From Verrucomicrobiales bacterium (GTDB lineage: Bacteria; Verrucomicrobiota; Verrucomicrobiia; Verrucomicrobiales; V1-33), in contig JAGNEJ010000048.1 in NCBI GenBank assembly GCA_018003315.1, positions 1 to 36,871 on the forward strand: 36,871 bases of DNA, in the 5' to 3' direction. Positions 3,911-10,569 of the stretch are shown piece by piece (within the stretch, counting starts at the first letter, position 1; each line of letters opens with the position of its first letter). The notes under the pieces were generated by a model. That model had not been told where the DNA came from. It was given only the letters and a program-made list of their open reading frames with translations, and did not search any database. The position numbers and the translations under genes were made by a program.

Positions 3911-6526
3911 TCAGACCAGCATGTGGCTGCGCTGGTCCTGCATGACTTCCGCCACGGTCTGGAAAAGTTTTGGCAGGGTGTAGGGTTTTGGCAGGAAGGA
4001 AATCTGGTGCTGGCGGGCCGTTTCCATGAGGTGGCTCCGGTCAGTGTAGCCGCTGGACAACAGCACCCGCAGGGAGGGATTGCGGTCGCGGAAGACACTG
4101 ATGAGGTCCACACCGTTGCCGTCCGGCAGCACCGCATCGCTGAAAATCATGTCAAACTGCCCGGCGTTGGCGTCGAATTTTTCCACGGCATCCCGGACGC
4201 AGTTGGCGGAGGTGACTTGGTAGCCGTTTCCGGAGAGCGCGGTGCGCACCAGCCGGTTCACCGCCTCCTCATCCTCCACCAGCAGGACCCGCTGCCCGGT
4301 TCCTTTCATGGAAGCGCTCCCTCCTGCGGGTTCCTCCGCAGGCTGGACTGGTTTGGGCACACGGCCCCGCAGTCCGGGCAGATACACGTGTACGGTGGTG
4401 CCGCGGCCCACTGCGGATTCGATTTCCAAGCCGCCACCGTGTTCCTGAATGATGGCATAGATCACCGACAACCCCAGGCCGGTGCCTTCGATGCCCTTGG
4501 TGGTGAAAAACGGTTCGAAGATCCGGTCCAGCAGCTCGGGAGCAATGCCGGCGCCGGTGTCCGTCACGGAAATCCTCACATATTCTCCGGATGGCTGCTG
4601 GCTGTTGAGCAGGTGGAAGGAATGCCGCCCGGGATCGACATTAGCCGTCCGGATGGTGAGCCTGCCGCCGCCGGGCATGGCATCGCGGGCGTTGACGCAG
4701 AGATTCATCACCACCTGTTCGACCTGCCCGGCGTCCGCCTGCACGGCCAGCAGGTCCGGTGCCAGATCCATCTCCATTTTGACATCCTCGCCAATGATGC
4801 GCCGGAGCATGTCGCTGCTGCTTTGAATGGCCTCGTTCAGATCGAAGATGCTCTTTTTGACCACCTGCTTGCGGCTGAAGGAAAGGAGCTGGCGGGTCAG
4901 CGTGGCCGCCTGCTGCGCGGCCCGGCGGATTTCCCTCAGCTCGTGAATGTTCGGATCACCCGCGGGAAGCCGACCCAGAATCATGTCCGCATAACCGATG
5001 ATCGGCAGCAGCATGTTGTTGAAGTCATGGGCGATGCCGCTGCTCAGCTTGCCAACCGCCTCCATTTTCTGCGACTGGTTGAGCTGCCCCTGCAGGCGCA
5101 CCTTTTCCTCTTCCATGCGCCGCCGGCGCAGGGCGCTGACCAGCGGGTCTGCAGCCATGCTCAGCAGCGAGGCGTCCTCCCGCTGCCACTGGCGCGGACT
5201 GGAAACGCTGTCTATGCCAAGAAATCCGAGCACTTCCTCACCGTGGGCCAGTTGCACCAGCAGCACCGCCTGGGCACCGCGGGCCTGGGCCAGATGTGGA
5301 AGCAGCCCTTCCCTGCGTTCTGGCACATGATGGGAAATGACCAGGGCACCTCCTCCCGGGGAGGGGTTGGCCGTGAGCGGCAGGGCGGAAAGAGGAACAT
5401 TCTGGAAGGTGCTCATCCCGGCTGGCACGCGGGCCATGATCCATTCATGGGTGCAGGAAAGCGACCCGGTGTCCCCCTGCACCTGAAGGAGATAACACCG
5501 GTCCACCACCATGAACGCCCCAATGCGGCTGAGGGCGGATTCGACCGCCTGGTCCACCTCGGAACTTTTGCTGCGCAGGAAGGTGGCGCTGATCGACGCC
5601 AGCAGCGTCTCCCGACTGGCCCGGTAGCTCAGGGCATGTTCTGCACGCCGCCGTTCGTCGATCTCCGCCAGCAACTGCTGGTTTGTTTTGCGGATTTCCC
5701 CCGTGCGTTCCTGCACCAGTTCCTCCAAGTGCTCCTGGTGACGTCGCACTTCGCGCTCAGCGGCGCGCCGCTCGGTAATGTCCCGGAAAACCAGCACCGC
5801 TCCCACCACTTCCTGCTTGTGGTTGAGAATCGGTGCACCGGAGTCGTCGATGGGGATGACCTCCCCGTTCCGCCGCTGCAGGACGGTGCCCTCTGCCAGA
5901 TTGGTCACCCGTGCGGTCCGCACTGCCTCCAGGGCGGGGTTGGCCACCCGCTGCCGGGTGTATTCATTGGCGATGGGAAACACCTCTTCAATGCCGCGGC
6001 CCTCCGCTTCTGCGCTGTTCCAGCCGGTCAATTGCTCGGCCAGAGGATTCATGAATCGGATCAGCCCCTGTTCGGTGGTGGCGATGACACCGTCTCCGAT
6101 GCTCATCAGCGTGGTTTGCAGCCAGTCGTTGCTTTCCTTCAAGGCGCGTTCCAGATCCACTTTGTAGAGGGCGATTTCCACGGTGGAGCGCAGGCCCGCT
6201 TCCTCAAACGGCTTGACCATGTAGCCGGCGGGCATCGTCAGCTTTGCCCGCTCCAGATACTTGCTGTCGGAATAGGCCGTCAAAAAGACACAGGGAATGT
6301 CCAGGTTGCGGCGGATGATGGCCGCCGCCTCCACGCCATCCATCTCACCCTGCAGGGTGATGTCCATGAGGATGAGATCCGGCTGCAGGGCTCCGGCCTT
6401 GTCGATGGCCTCCCGTCCTGAAAGCGCGGTGCCGACCACCTCGCACCCCATGTGCAGGAGGACCTCCATGATGTCCTGGGCGACAATGCGCTCGTCGTCC
6501 ACAACCAGGATGCGGCGGCGCTTCAT
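3911..6526 (-). CDS. Hybrid histidine kinase: REC-PAS-GAF-HisKA-HATPase-REC
   Basis: A cytoplasmic hybrid sensor kinase of 871 residues without membrane segments. Domains in order: receiver 1 (about 5-120; acidic pair D10/D11, phospho-acceptor D55, T83, K105), PAS (about 130-250), coiled linker (250-300), GAF (about 310-465), dimerisation/phosphoacceptor helix with GIAHDFNN (H500), HATPase with N box near 608-616 and G boxes VTDTGAGIA and GTGLGLSV, then receiver 2 (about 745-865; D797, K847). Receiver 1 resembles response regulators that pair with HisKA_2/HWE kinases, so it is a plausible phosphorylation target of the kinase encoded just upstream. It is the last gene of a three-gene unit, 115 bases after the second kinase. 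Unusually for this window it has a good ribosome-binding site. No DNA-binding domain is present, so output must pass to another protein. Confidence 0.9.
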   Translation of the reverse strand: MKRRRILVVDDERIVAQDIMEVLLHMGCEVVGTALSGREAIDKAGALQPDLILMDITLQGEMDGVEAAAIIRRNLDIPCVFLTAYSDSKYLERAKLTMPAGYMVKPFEEAGLRSTVEIALYKVDLERALKESNDWLQTTLMSIGDGVIATTEQGLIRFMNPLAEQLTGWNSAEAEGRGIEEVFPIANEYTRQRVANPALEAVRTARVTNLAEGTVLQRRNGEVIPIDDSGAPILNHKQEVVGAVLVFRDITERRAAEREVRRHQEHLEELVQERTGEIRKTNQQLLAEIDERRRAEHALSYRASRETLLASISATFLRSKSSEVDQAVESALSRIGAFMVVDRCYLLQVQGDTGSLSCTHEWIMARVPAGMSTFQNVPLSALPLTANPSPGGGALVISHHVPERREGLLPHLAQARGAQAVLLVQLAHGEEVLGFLGIDSVSSPRQWQREDASLLSMAADPLVSALRRRRMEEEKVRLQGQLNQSQKMEAVGKLSSGIAHDFNNMLLPIIGYADMILGRLPAGDPNIHELREIRRAAQQAATLTRQLLSFSRKQVVKKSIFDLNEAIQSSSDMLRRIIGEDVKMEMDLAPDLLAVQADAGQVEQVVMNLCVNARDAMPGGGRLTIRTANVDPGRHSFHLLNSQQPSGEYVRISVTDTGAGIAPELLDRIFEPFFTTKGIEGTGLGLSVIYAIIQEHGGGLEIESAVGRGTTVHVYLPGLRGRVPKPVQPAEEPAGGSASMKGTGQRVLLVEDEEAVNRLVRTALSGNGYQVTSANCVRDAVEKFDANAGQFDMIFSDAVLPDGNGVDLISVFRDRNPSLRVLLSSGYTDRSHLMETARQHQISFLPKPYTLPKLFQTVAEVMQDQRSHMLV

Positions 6527-6535
6527 GGCAGGATT

Positions 6536-6541
6536 CCTCCC
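6536..6541 (-). promoter_or_regulatory. Shine-Dalgarno of the hybrid kinase gene
   Basis: GGGAGG on the minus strand, nine bases before the ATG at 6526. It is one of very few convincing Shine-Dalgarno sequences in the window. It suggests that this distal gene initiates independently rather than by coupling to the upstream kinase. Confidence 0.7.
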
Positions 6542-6641
6542 TTCCTGCTGTGCTGCGGCCCGGCAACGGCTTCATGGCCATGTGGCCGGTGCCATGTCGT
6601 TGGATAGCGGTCGCTGTTGAATGATTGAAGATTCATCGGAG

Positions 6642-8060
6642 TCAGATGCGAATTTTGTACTGCGTCTCGCGGAACTTGATTTCCCAGCGGGTGCCCTGGT
6701 CGGTGGTCAGGGTGATTTTTCCGTTGAGCTGGTCAGCGAGCATGGAAACGAGGCGCATGCCGAGCGACTCGCTGCGGTTCAGGTCCATGTCTGCCGGAAT
6801 GCCCACGCCGTTGTCCCAGACGATCAGGGTGAATTCCCCGGCCCGCTCGCGGCTGATGGAAACATAAATGTGTCCTTCAACCTGTTCTGGAAATACATAT
6901 TTGAGGGCGTTGGACACCAGCTCGGTCACGATCAGCCCGCATGGGAGTGCGGTGTCCATGCCAAGGTAAACCTCATGCACTCCGAGCTTGATCTCGCGCC
7001 GCCTGCCGGGCGGGGTGTTCACGCGCACCAGTTCATTGGTCAGGGTCCGGAGGTAGCTCTGCATGTCGATGGCGCTGACGCTTTCCGACTGGTAGAGCTT
7101 TTCGTGCAGCAGTCCCATGGAGCGGATACGCGCCTCGGATTCCATGAGCACGGTGCGCAGTTGCCGGGAGTTGGCCCGTCGCGCCTGCAGCCGCAGCAGA
7201 CTGGTCAGGATCTGCATGTTGTTCTTCACCCGGTGGTGGATTTCACGCAGCAGGATTTCCTTCTCCCGCGCCGCCGCCTCCGACTTGACAGAATCGCGCA
7301 GCTTCGTCTGGCTGGTTTCCAGCGCCTCCACCATGGTGTTGATGCTGTCTGCCAGCTCCCCCAGTTCATCTCTGGACCGGATGTCCACGCGGGCGCTCAG
7401 CGCTCCGGTCGCGACCTTGCACGCAAAAGCCTGCAGGCTCTTGATCGGTTCGGTCAGGCGGCGTGCGAAAATCCACGCCGCCAGCGCTCCCGTCACCAGG
7501 GTGAGCCCGCCGACGATGCCCGTCGTCAGGTAAACGCCCCGCACATTCGCCTCATACGACTCAAGACCCATGCCAACATGGATCCGCCCGGCGGAAATGC
7601 CCTCCGCGCTGCAGGGCGTGGCAAAGTGGAAAAATTTCCTGCCCTTCAGCAGGGGCAGGTCACTGGTGAGCATCGCCGCCAATTCCGGCGTTTCGGCATC
7701 ATTGTTCCAGTTGTCACCCAGGGGTTCCTGGCTGAACTGGCCGTTGCTGTAATGCACGAGCGCCTGCTTTCCCGGCCAACTGGTGACCACGTAGGCAATG
7801 TCACGGTTCTTTTCGAGGAGCTTCAGACAGTAAATGACAACCGCCGGGTAGTCCTGCCGCGCGATCGCCCGGCCGATTTCATTCTCGATGTTGCTGGCGA
7901 GGTTTTTCGCCCGGTACTGCAGTTCGCGGTGAAAACTTTCGCGCTGGTAGCGCATCATGATCGCGGCAAAGATGACCACGCTCATCACCGCCACCATCCA
8001 GGACATGAACGTGATCCGGCGCAGGATGCTGGAACGGCGGGTGTGCGGCGGGTGTTCCAT
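6642..8060 (-). CDS. Membrane sensor histidine kinase (HAMP, HisKA_2 type)
   Basis: 472 residues. Two membrane segments (about 18-36 and 177-197) bracket a periplasmic sensory domain of about 140 residues. A HAMP domain (about 198-250) and a short coil follow, then REIHHRVKNNMQ (272-283), the signature of the HisKA_2 family with H276 the likely phosphorylated histidine. The ATPase domain carries the N box VTELVSNALKY and the G boxes VWDNGVGIP and SLGMRLV. Kinases of this type usually phosphorylate stand-alone or PAS-linked receivers. It starts three bases after the stop of the binding-protein gene, so the two are almost certainly co-translated. The periplasmic domain is the obvious contact for the upstream binding protein. 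Confidence 0.92.
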   Translation of the reverse strand: MEHPPHTRRSSILRRITFMSWMVAVMSVVIFAAIMMRYQRESFHRELQYRAKNLASNIENEIGRAIARQDYPAVVIYCLKLLEKNRDIAYVVTSWPGKQALVHYSNGQFSQEPLGDNWNNDAETPELAAMLTSDLPLLKGRKFFHFATPCSAEGISAGRIHVGMGLESYEANVRGVYLTTGIVGGLTLVTGALAAWIFARRLTEPIKSLQAFACKVATGALSARVDIRSRDELGELADSINTMVEALETSQTKLRDSVKSEAAAREKEILLREIHHRVKNNMQILTSLLRLQARRANSRQLRTVLMESEARIRSMGLLHEKLYQSESVSAIDMQSYLRTLTNELVRVNTPPGRRREIKLGVHEVYLGMDTALPCGLIVTELVSNALKYVFPEQVEGHIYVSISRERAGEFTLIVWDNGVGIPADMDLNRSESLGMRLVSMLADQLNGKITLTTDQGTRWEIKFRETQYKIRI

Positions 8061-8063
8061 GGA

Positions 8064-9134
8064 TCAGCGATAGGACAGCCGGGAGCGCGGTGCCGGTCCT
8101 TTGGGCGGTTTTGGACTGAGATTCGGGGCGGAAACTTCTCCATTGCGCGGCTTTCCGGAAGTTCGCTCCCCGGAAGTTCCAGGTTCGCTTCGTCCCGGCA
8201 CTTTGGGCTGATTGAGGTATTGCAGGTGCGCGTCCCATTCCCCCTGCAGCGTTTCCAGCATTTCCGCCTGAAACAGGGACATCCGCGGTCCGCTAAAGCG
8301 CGGGCCGTTGCGCTGGGCCATCGCCAGGGAAACGGCCACCACTTCGTTGCGGATTGCGTCCGCCAAATCCTTCCGACAGGCAATGACATGGCTCAGCAGG
8401 CTCGGCGCGCTGAGAATCCGCCGCATCCGGGCGGCCACCTGGGGATTGCGCGCCACGACCTGTTCAAATCCCTGGGCGCTGACAATGCAGCCGTCCGCTC
8501 CCGCCCCATTGAAAAACACCGGCAGCACCGCCCGCAGCGGCGTCGAAACATGGCGGAATGTCGCAAACTCCTCACGGCCAAATTGCGTGCGTTGGCGGAT
8601 GGCGTTGTCGATCCAATACAGCGGCAGACCGCCCCGACCCCCGATCTCAACCGTGATCGTTTTGCGGTAGAGATCCTCCAGGCTTGCGATGCCGGAGGAC
8701 TCCGTCACGTAAAGTCCGTAATCGACCTGGACTCCGGATCCAAAATCCGGCACCAGCAGCGCCTCCAGACTGCATTCCTGCCGCAGGTCCACAAAGTCAT
8801 ACCCATACATCGGAAAAACATCCGCAAAGGAGGCTGGGTCGCTCCGCAGTTTCCCGATGAACGCCTCCCAAGACGGGAACAGCAGGTGTTCAGGCCGGGT
8901 CAGGATACACCGGGTCACCAATTCTTGCACCCATGGTTCAAACTGGGTCCGCTGCTCCCCCTCACCGACATCCTGAACGTTGAAATCTAAAAAATTCGCC
9001 ACCCGCAAAGCGGGCACCGGGGGCACCGCACGCCCCGGCACGCCTGACAATCCCCACCCGCACGCAACGCCAGCAAGCCGGGCCAAAAATCTTCGGCGAG
9101 CCCACCCGTCCGGCACTTGTTGCTCCGTTGACAT
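8064..9134 (-). CDS. PhnD-like periplasmic substrate-binding protein, Tat signal
   Basis: 356 residues. The N-terminus holds ARRRFLARLAG, a twin-arginine signal followed by a short hydrophobic core, predicting folded export to the periplasm. The body resembles phosphate/phosphonate ABC-transporter binding proteins (PhnD-like, type 2 periplasmic fold): FPMYGYDFVDLRQE, a linker with SSGIASLEDLYRKTITVE and GADGCIVSAQGFE are typical positions. The last 45 residues are a proline/serine/arginine-rich tail with no fold. No transporter permease or ATPase lies nearby. The next two genes are histidine kinases, so this is probably a ligand sensor subunit and not an uptake protein. The ligand is not readable from sequence. 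Confidence 0.8.
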   Translation of the reverse strand: MSTEQQVPDGWARRRFLARLAGVACGWGLSGVPGRAVPPVPALRVANFLDFNVQDVGEGEQRTQFEPWVQELVTRCILTRPEHLLFPSWEAFIGKLRSDPASFADVFPMYGYDFVDLRQECSLEALLVPDFGSGVQVDYGLYVTESSGIASLEDLYRKTITVEIGGRGGLPLYWIDNAIRQRTQFGREEFATFRHVSTPLRAVLPVFFNGAGADGCIVSAQGFEQVVARNPQVAARMRRILSAPSLLSHVIACRKDLADAIRNEVVAVSLAMAQRNGPRFSGPRMSLFQAEMLETLQGEWDAHLQYLNQPKVPGRSEPGTSGERTSGKPRNGEVSAPNLSPKPPKGPAPRSRLSYR

Positions 9135-9156
9135 CTGTTGAATATGAAATTCACGA

Positions 9157-9184
9157 AAATTACAATTTTTCTATCATTTTTCAA
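9157..9184 (-). promoter_or_regulatory. Candidate sigma-70-type promoter for the sensory operon
   Basis: In an AT-rich patch (about 9147-9222) upstream of the binding-protein start, the minus strand reads TTGAAA (9184-9179), a 16-base spacer and TAATTT (9162-9157). This would give a 5' leader of about 20 bases before the ATG at 9134. A small AT-rich inverted repeat (TAAAT/ATTTA, 9204-9219) lies just upstream. Assigned by eye only. Confidence 0.4.
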
Positions 9185-9232
9185 ATTTTTTATCGGCTGC
9201 ATCTTAAATTTTTAGATTTATGAACCACACCC

Positions 9233-9393: not shown

Positions 9394-10569
9394 TTATTTT
9401 GGTCCGGAATCCGGTGGGGAAGTGGCGAGGTCCAGGAGGGACTCCTTGAAGGCGGGATCCTTCCGGTAGAGCATTTCGAAAATGGCCTGTTGCAGGGATT
9501 TGTTGGATGTGGACTCGAGTTCGGCGGGCAGCGCTTTGAGGAAGGCGTCCTTGTCGGTGTCGTACCATTTCTCCATGGCGAAGAGGAGCGTGTGTTCCCT
9601 GCTGGCGGGGTTTTCCAGGGTTTTGGCCCAGAGGATGGCGTCTTTGGGCGAGGTTTCCGCGGCTGCCTGGGAAAACGCAGCGGCGGCGGTTTCATAGAAT
9701 GGTCCCTCCGGCAGTGAGTTGAGCCAGCGGGACACGGCTCCGGCATCGTGATCCACCCAGGACGAGACGAGCACGGCGACCGTATCGTTGGGGATTGCGG
9801 GATTCTCCGGAAGGGCGCTTTGGAGCCACTGGGCCGTGGCTGCAGGATCGGTGGCGGACCAGGTGGAAACCAGGTTCTGCGCGGCACTGGACTGCGATTC
9901 CGGAGGGAGTTTTTTCAGCCATTCGGTGGCGGCGGACGGGTCCTTTTCCGCCCATGCCTGGGCCAGCGCGGCTTCTGCGGCGGTGCGGTCGGCACCGGTT
10001 GGAATGGATGCCACCCACTGGGCGGCACCGGTTGGGTCCAGGGCGCACCACTGGCTGGCCACGGCCCCAGCGGCACCGCGGAAGCTGCCGGTTCCGAGGT
10101 GCTGCAGCACCCATGCAGAAGCGGCGGGAGGATCGGACAGGACCCAATGTTGACAGAGAATGGCGGCGGCGGCCTCGCGGAATTCCCCCGTGGGCAGGCT
10201 TTGCAGCCAAACGGCGCATCCCGGAGCATCGGCCGCGGCCCAGCGGGTGAAGAGGTCCTCCAGTGCCTCGGCGGAATCGTCCACCGGGAGTTGGGAAAGT
10301 TTTACCGCTTCTGCGACAAAAGCATCGTGCGCGACGGTGCTCGCGCTCTGGGAGGCTTCCTGTGCGGTGTTTTCTGCATGGGCGCCAGCCTTGCCTTTTT
10401 TGAGGCGGGGTCCGATGGGATCGGGTGCCGGGGCGGTTGCGTGAGGGGGCGACTGGGCGGCGGAGTCCGGGTTGCTGCACTGGCGCGGGAGGACCACCAG
10501 CAGGAACAGTCCGGCAAGGGTGGCAGCGATGAATACGCCAGCCTGGCCGAGTTGTTCGCGTTCAGGCAT
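9394..10569 (-). CDS. Membrane-anchored protein with eight 32-residue W-DP-W repeats
   Basis: 391 residues with an N-terminal membrane anchor (about 10-28), a low-complexity stalk to residue 80, and eight tandem helical repeats. A conserved Trp begins each unit at 110, 142, 174, 206, 237, 271 and 335 (Ala at 303). A second Trp lies eleven residues later (121, 153, 185, 217, 248, 282, 314). The unit reads roughly W-x3-DP-x-AA-x-WL-x2-LP-x-G, then a second Ala-rich helix, suggesting a TPR/Sel1-like alpha-solenoid for protein binding outside the membrane. Similar repeats occur in uncharacterised verrucomicrobial proteins as far as I recall. No enzyme motif is seen. It follows the Ig-like secreted protein by 34 bases and is probably co-transcribed with it. 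Confidence 0.8.
   Translation of the reverse strand: MPEREQLGQAGVFIAATLAGLFLLVVLPRQCSNPDSAAQSPPHATAPAPDPIGPRLKKGKAGAHAENTAQEASQSASTVAHDAFVAEAVKLSQLPVDDSAEALEDLFTRWAAADAPGCAVWLQSLPTGEFREAAAAILCQHWVLSDPPAASAWVLQHLGTGSFRGAAGAVASQWCALDPTGAAQWVASIPTGADRTAAEAALAQAWAEKDPSAATEWLKKLPPESQSSAAQNLVSTWSATDPAATAQWLQSALPENPAIPNDTVAVLVSSWVDHDAGAVSRWLNSLPEGPFYETAAAAFSQAAAETSPKDAILWAKTLENPASREHTLLFAMEKWYDTDKDAFLKALPAELESTSNKSLQQAIFEMLYRKDPAFKESLLDLATSPPDSGPK

Follow-up and report, generated by a model that had tools for sequence, protein, structure and literature searches.

Some sensor kinases, among them TtrS and ThsS, use a PhnD-like domain as their input, the binding domain lying within the kinase itself. 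The closest described systems to the one examined here are the AioX-AioS-AioR and ArrX-ArrS-ArrR "XSR" modules, in which a stand-alone PhnD-like sensing solute-binding protein (SBP) is encoded with a membrane kinase and no transporter (PMC5908839). Secreted SBPs also act on kinase sensors in TorT-TorS, LuxP-LuxQ and BctC-BctE (PMC9602780), and SBP-driven kinases have usually been studied as single sets of SBP, kinase and regulator. The present study concerns a three-gene locus, hereafter the trio, in the draft genome of an uncultured Verrucomicrobiales bacterium (GCA_018003315.1; 5.09 Mb in 155 contigs), which encodes a stand-alone PhnD-like SBP predicted to be secreted by an N-terminal signal, a membrane sensor kinase (kinase 1) and a hybrid kinase with two receivers (kinase 2). 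The window, that is the whole stretch of DNA analysed, is the entire contig C117 (36,871 nucleotides), and its gene calls are predictions. We consider it reasonably probable that the trio constitutes an SBP-input phosphorelay running through two kinases in series.

In the proposed relay, the exported SBP would bind an extracytoplasmic ligand and act on the Cache domain of kinase 1, whose HisKA_2 histidine would phosphorylate Asp55 of the hybrid's first receiver (REC1). Phosphorylated REC1 would then switch the fused histidine kinase core, as the architecture and the minimal and fused homologues suggest, and the hybrid would phosphorylate its own second receiver (REC2), with the final output encoded elsewhere in the genome. 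The trio resembles the XSR modules in pairing a transporter-less PhnD-like SBP with a membrane kinase, but its third gene encodes a hybrid kinase where theirs encodes a DNA-binding regulator, its first kinase belongs to the HisKA_2 class, no arsenic genes were seen beside it, and its relatives carry tandem SBPs and a TolC-like gene. Unlike in TtrS and ThsS, the SBP is separate and secreted and kinase 1 has a Cache domain of its own. The proposed action of a secreted SBP on a kinase sensor is shared with TorT-TorS, LuxP-LuxQ and BctC-BctE, although the SBP families and kinase classes differ and those operons lack a serial second kinase. The minus strand carries all three open reading frames (ORFs) in head-to-tail order, at the coordinates stated beforehand, and they comprise the following features.

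8064..9134, minus strand: SBP, PhnD-like type II periplasmic-binding fold, 356 amino acids, Phosphonate-bd at residues 62-274
9015..9134, minus strand: N-terminal export signal of the SBP, RRRFL at residues 13-17, resembling a twin-arginine translocation (Tat) signal; not conserved among orthologues
6642..8060, minus strand: membrane sensor kinase 1, 472 amino acids, transmembrane segment - periplasmic single Cache - transmembrane segment - HAMP - HisKA_2 - HATPase
7533..7952, minus strand: periplasmic sensor of kinase 1, residues 37-176, single Cache/PDC fold from an AlphaFold2 (AF2) model and fold matches, weak sCache_3_2 match in Pfam
6666..7244, minus strand: HisKA_2 (residues 273-346; H275/H276 in EIHHRVKNN) and HATPase (residues 376-465) of kinase 1, from Pfam
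3911..6526, minus strand: hybrid kinase 2, 871 amino acids, REC1 - PAS - GAF - HisKA - HATPase - REC2
6152..6517, minus strand: REC1, residues 4-125, D55 (codon 6364-6362) and K105, PdtaR/PhyR-like receiver
4376..5053, minus strand: kinase 2 core, HisKA and HATPase, H500 (codon 5029-5027)
3929..4297, minus strand: REC2, residues 744-866, D797 (codon 4138-4136) and K847

Kinase 1 starts three bases past the SBP stop, and its residues 37-176 sit between two hydrophobic stretches (about 12-39 and 180-200); the SBP ends in a tail of proline and basic residues from about residue 310 onward. Pfam assigns Phosphonate-bd (PF12974, E 6.5e-9) to the SBP, HAMP, HisKA_2 (PF07568, E 5.1e-27) and HATPase to kinase 1, and REC in two stretches (E 8.7e-39), PAS, GAF and HATPase_c to the hybrid, whose HisKA domain falls marginally below the cut-off (E 6.1e-6; 26.6 versus 26.9 bits) and which has no helix-turn-helix (HTH) domain. 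Catalytic residues of kinase 1 (H275/H276, N384) and of the hybrid (D55, K105, H500, N612, D797, K847) are invariant in an alignment of five orthologous trios. The layout described in an earlier note on this DNA was borne out in coordinates, strand, domain make-up and catalytic residues, as was its remark that no DNA-binding output lies nearby, the cassette containing no DNA-binding gene. For the kinase 2 core together with REC2, the best-scoring models are those of CckA (E 8.7e-119, 398 bits), but this score stands against an equivalog cut-off of 1000 bits, and kinase 2 differs from CckA in its extra N-terminal receiver and in having no transmembrane region noted.

Among 57 relatives, SBP matches were found in six genomes, the window's own included. 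The full trio recurs with the same genes in the same order in a member of the same genus (G001), one of the same family (G007) and two of another family of the order (G029 and G044), at identities of 37-66% for kinase 1 and 42-65% for the hybrid, so the arrangement is not a product of chance; the flanking genes differ between the window and these four genomes. The earlier note had made its reading depend chiefly on such conservation, and both order and spacing proved to be kept across genera and families. Within the genus the SBP is 39% identical, versus 66% for kinase 1 and 65% for the hybrid. Further sets of the HisKA_2 type are present in G354, G450 and G473, and some conserved trios carry a TolC-like gene plus a second SBP; a TolC-like gene lies near the trio in G029, G354 and G473 and is absent from the neighbourhoods in the window, G001, G007 and G044. 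The system is sparse, as an order-wide SBP search gave matches in only 10 of 387 genomes. A search with the sensor region, which is not biased towards SBP-bearing loci, returned 15 near-full-length matches from 240 genomes of the order (one of them in a truncated locus, G475), with an SBP immediately upstream in 10 of the 15.

Phosphotransfer from kinase 1 to Asp55 of REC1 is predicted with strong support from the pairing of kinase and receiver classes, from a homologue with a split receiver, and from the relationship of REC1 to receivers that partner HisKA_2/HWE kinases. For sensor kinases of the HisKA_2 class, the next gene encodes a receiver that matches the REC1 model at 97-220 bits in all 14 complete-enough loci (the window, L013, L014, L016, L017, L092, L108, L109, L132, L133, L134, L135, L110, which is identical to L093, and L165), whereas behind a second kinase class (motif HNVGNVLNS) lies another type of receiver (motif IHxDFRKIL) in 11 of 11 (L049, L050, L052, L061, L064, L068, L072, L074, L078, L079 and L094), the models of both classes having been built partly from these same loci. 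Cross-pairing between the classes was seen in none of the 14 and 11 loci. HisKA_2-type sensors from Verrucomicrobiota group in a single clade (96/87), outside which L092 is placed with borderline support (p-AU 0.051); class switches probably occurred once or twice in evolution. The most telling single locus is L092, where a stand-alone REC1-like receiver of 121 amino acids is encoded directly behind a HisKA_2-type kinase. The nearest solved sequences to REC1 include PdtaR (1s8n, E 1.2e-19) and PhyR (E 1.1e-11), and PdtaS phosphorylates PdtaR in vitro (PMC8131098). The trio thus resembles PdtaS-PdtaR and PhyK-PhyR in placing a REC1-type receiver next to a HisKA_2/HWE-type kinase, and among NCBIfam models kinase 1 matches PhyK best, though far below the cut-off. 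Unlike PdtaR and PhyR, with their RNA-binding or sigma-factor-mimic outputs, REC1 heads a second histidine kinase.

That the signal passes on to kinase 2 gains support from two relatives whose sensor is naturally fused to the kinase 2 core, omitting the first step. In G012 and G003 a single protein joins sensor and HAMP directly to GAF-HisKA-HATPase-REC. In a tree, the fused core and the trio hybrids form a fully supported group from which the other hybrids of G000, G007 and G012 are separate; in the fused form as in the trio, this kinase core has the same sensor upstream of it. The G012 contig (C480) is too short to reveal an SBP, and another contig of that genome carries the end of a HisKA_2 kinase followed by an ordinary trio hybrid. 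The hybrid of G473 is minimal, consisting of REC1-HisKA-HATPase-REC2 without PAS or GAF. Related cassettes place GGDEF-EAL (L062, L067, L068 and L072) or PAS-GGDEF with or without EAL (L066 and L075) behind the leading receiver of the same protein, and a receiver-DUF3369-HD protein adjoins an SBP and sensor kinase cassette in L088 (12539-14077). A receiver controlling its fused enzyme would be a general pattern across the cassettes, and it is on this pattern, together with the minimal and fused homologues, that the proposed gating of kinase 2 by REC1 is based.

Several observations weigh against the serial relay. Four kinase-hybrid duos have no adjacent SBP (G358, G401 and second copies in G354 and G029), and neighbouring genes for an SBP and a kinase need not be linked in function (PMC11113362), for which reason the step from SBP to kinase 1 is worded here as a proposal. 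The class pairing, besides its partly shared models, reflects few independent events, since the sensor tree separates the two classes by one change; a test by independent contrasts comprised one independent pair and gave no significance. The sensor of the G003 fusion was matched weakly, at 26 bits. A canonical histidine phosphotransfer (Hpt) protein is absent from the genome and no partner of REC2 was identified; a canonical Hpt phosphorelay from REC2 was rejected on this ground, and a ChpT-like match barely exceeds its cut-off (23.0 versus 22.9 bits). On balance, the serial relay of the earlier note is partly supported, and better so than at first reading: the pairing of kinase 1 with REC1 and the flow to kinase 2 suggested by the fusions stand, while a strict requirement for the SBP is at odds with the four duos, and both SBP dependence and Tat export have to be qualified.

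An alternative for the first step, which we regard as unlikely though deserving of attention, is that a small ligand is detected by the Cache domain on its own, the SBP delivering, buffering or scavenging that ligand or working with an outer-membrane channel, and the two kinases still forming a relay. Direct ligand binding is known from single Cache folds such as CitA. The AF2 model of the kinase 1 sensor region (mean predicted local distance difference test, pLDDT, 90.3) is such a fold, with CitA (Z 12.6) and the WalK sensor (Z 12.5) as matches, and the alternative gains further from the duos without an SBP, from the faster divergence of the SBP than of the kinases within the genus, and from an adjacent SBP and kinase of P. 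aeruginosa that showed no interaction (PMC11113362). Cassettes with up to six tandem SBPs per kinase and no detected inner-membrane transporter are, however, consistent with SBPs acting as inputs, and the nearest solved relatives of the SBP family include the dedicated sensing proteins ArrX and AioX (PMC5908839).

Rather improbable is a scheme in which kinase 2 is an independent sensor through its PAS and GAF domains, REC1 integrating signals or acting as a phosphate sink and both kinases converging on a shared target. PAS and GAF are retained in most trio hybrids, REC2 could feed a parallel target, and the order of flow cannot be told from sequence; yet the G473 hybrid dispenses with both domains and keeps REC1 close to the HisKA core, and the G012 and G003 fusions set the same sensor directly upstream of that core. 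That the SBP is part of a phosphonate/phosphite-type ABC transporter whose place beside the kinases is incidental has very little probability and is already largely refuted, for although Pfam labels the protein Phosphonate-bd, the cassette has no permease or ATPase, the genome has no PhnE above the cut-off, the score for TIGR01098 (transport PhnD) is 12 bits where 112 are required, the gene order is kept in distant relatives, and neither the Ser-x-Ser nor the His of the oxyanion site is conserved.

A role in phosphonate transport was rejected on the TIGR01098 and PhnE results, and the earlier note's statement that no transporter lies nearby agrees with them: the sole ABC ATPase-like gene of the window is far off, near 15.9 kb, and neither PhnC nor PhnE was found in the immediate neighbourhood of the related cassettes. 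The AF2 model of the SBP (mean pLDDT 78.9, predicted template modelling score 0.74) has a type II periplasmic-binding fold, matching XAC2383 (Z 20.7), ArrX (Z 20.6) and then PtxB, AioX and PhnD with Z values close together, and ArrX is the nearest solved relative by profile search (E 1.6e-18). A Ser-x-Ser loop and a pocket His are oxyanion-site features of AioX and PhnD (PMC5908839). In the window's SBP, by contrast, both the Ser-x-Ser and the His (His192, AioX numbering) are replaced in the profile alignment to ArrX, and these columns vary across the family; the position of Cys106 (AioX numbering) lies outside that alignment. With the PhnD-type oxyanion-site residues missing, the ligand is not predictable, and arsenic sensing of the AioX type was rejected because the pocket residues are not conserved where the alignment covers them. 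The earlier note had called the SBP Tat-exported. The RRRFL motif of the window's protein and a TatC in the genome agree with this, but any such motif occurs in only 8 of 86 SBPs and is missing from the nearest orthologues, which rules out Tat export as a system-wide feature.

Restricting the relatives to Verrucomicrobiota would be too narrow. A phylum-wide search and a scan of named genomes recovered loci from Verrucomicrobiota, Acidobacteriota, Desulfobacterota/Thermodesulfobacteriota and Nitrospirota, and further from Synergistota, Sumerlaeota, Ignavibacteriota and others; most of the named contigs that carry a matching cassette belong to Verrucomicrobiota, and all genomes of the wider family are drafts in which single contigs may be misbinned. 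The usual layout comprises a TolC-like outer-membrane protein (PF02321 confirmed in one locus), between one and six SBPs in tandem, a single kinase sharing the sensor region, and a receiver protein in which the receiver is fused to a kinase or to cyclic di-GMP enzymes. Signature residues recur in 86 SBPs (W174 in 85, F208 and N230-P231 in all 86, Q232 in 84), counts that are unusable as frequencies given that the loci were collected via the SBP itself. A scan of genome contigs with the window's SBP as sole query returned no relative, and a conserved subset of distant SBPs was used instead; an alignment of 16 SBP sequences contained no stretch conserved enough for scanning.

Tentatively, and with somewhat less than even confidence, we propose that the trio is a branch of a widespread, so far undescribed cassette family: a TolC-like channel, one to six transporter-less SBPs of a PhnD-like subfamily (W...VLPVFFG..DAC...NPQ), one Cache kinase that reads all SBPs of the array, and a receiver whose output can be exchanged (second histidine kinase, GGDEF/EAL or HD). 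If this is true, several ligands would be combined at one receptor in cassettes with SBP arrays. The single ingredients are familiar; their combination, and the family of cassettes that the trio would belong to, are apparently not described in open-access papers, the only literature in which a published account of a TolC-SBP-kinase cassette was sought and not found, which is weak evidence. Together, these loci form a natural series with an intact three-step relay, a split receiver, a fused short-circuit, swapped classes, swapped outputs and tandem SBPs, through which it becomes testable how one kinase reads several SBPs and how a receiver gates a second kinase. Given its unpredicted ligands, the family may hold new sensor chemistry.

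Individual loci of the wider survey vary in layout. In L060 (3138-9156), L070 (7968-13462), L084 and L065 (7898-13649), one sensor kinase is preceded by as many as six tandem SBPs from the same subfamily, and no transporter gene was seen. Two Desulfovibrionales loci (L062, 159-8361; L067, 4302-12439) encode two SBPs and two REC-GGDEF-EAL proteins and no sensor kinase, in place of which an HTH-PAS-GAF protein lies upstream. A more classical module, with a weakly matching SBP, a histidine kinase and a sigma-54-type response regulator, is found in the same phylum (L055, 6898-10861). In L051 (7433-12537) a weakly matching SBP adjoins genes that resemble, by sequence and size only, a resistance-nodulation-division (RND) efflux pump and a membrane fusion protein, and in a HisKA_2-type cassette (L107, 1932-4499) the TolC-like domain lies in an 855-amino-acid ORF with a long N-terminal extension.

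PADLOC matches are partial and confined to the receiver domain, and a defence system was rejected. A consensus promoter scan upstream of the SBP gave no minus-strand site, and such organisms may use other promoters. A short A+T-rich stretch (9135-9220) abuts the SBP start on its upstream side, and 5' of the SBP on the same strand, at 9394-10569, lies a 391-amino-acid ORF without a Pfam match that carries repeated W..LP-type motifs.

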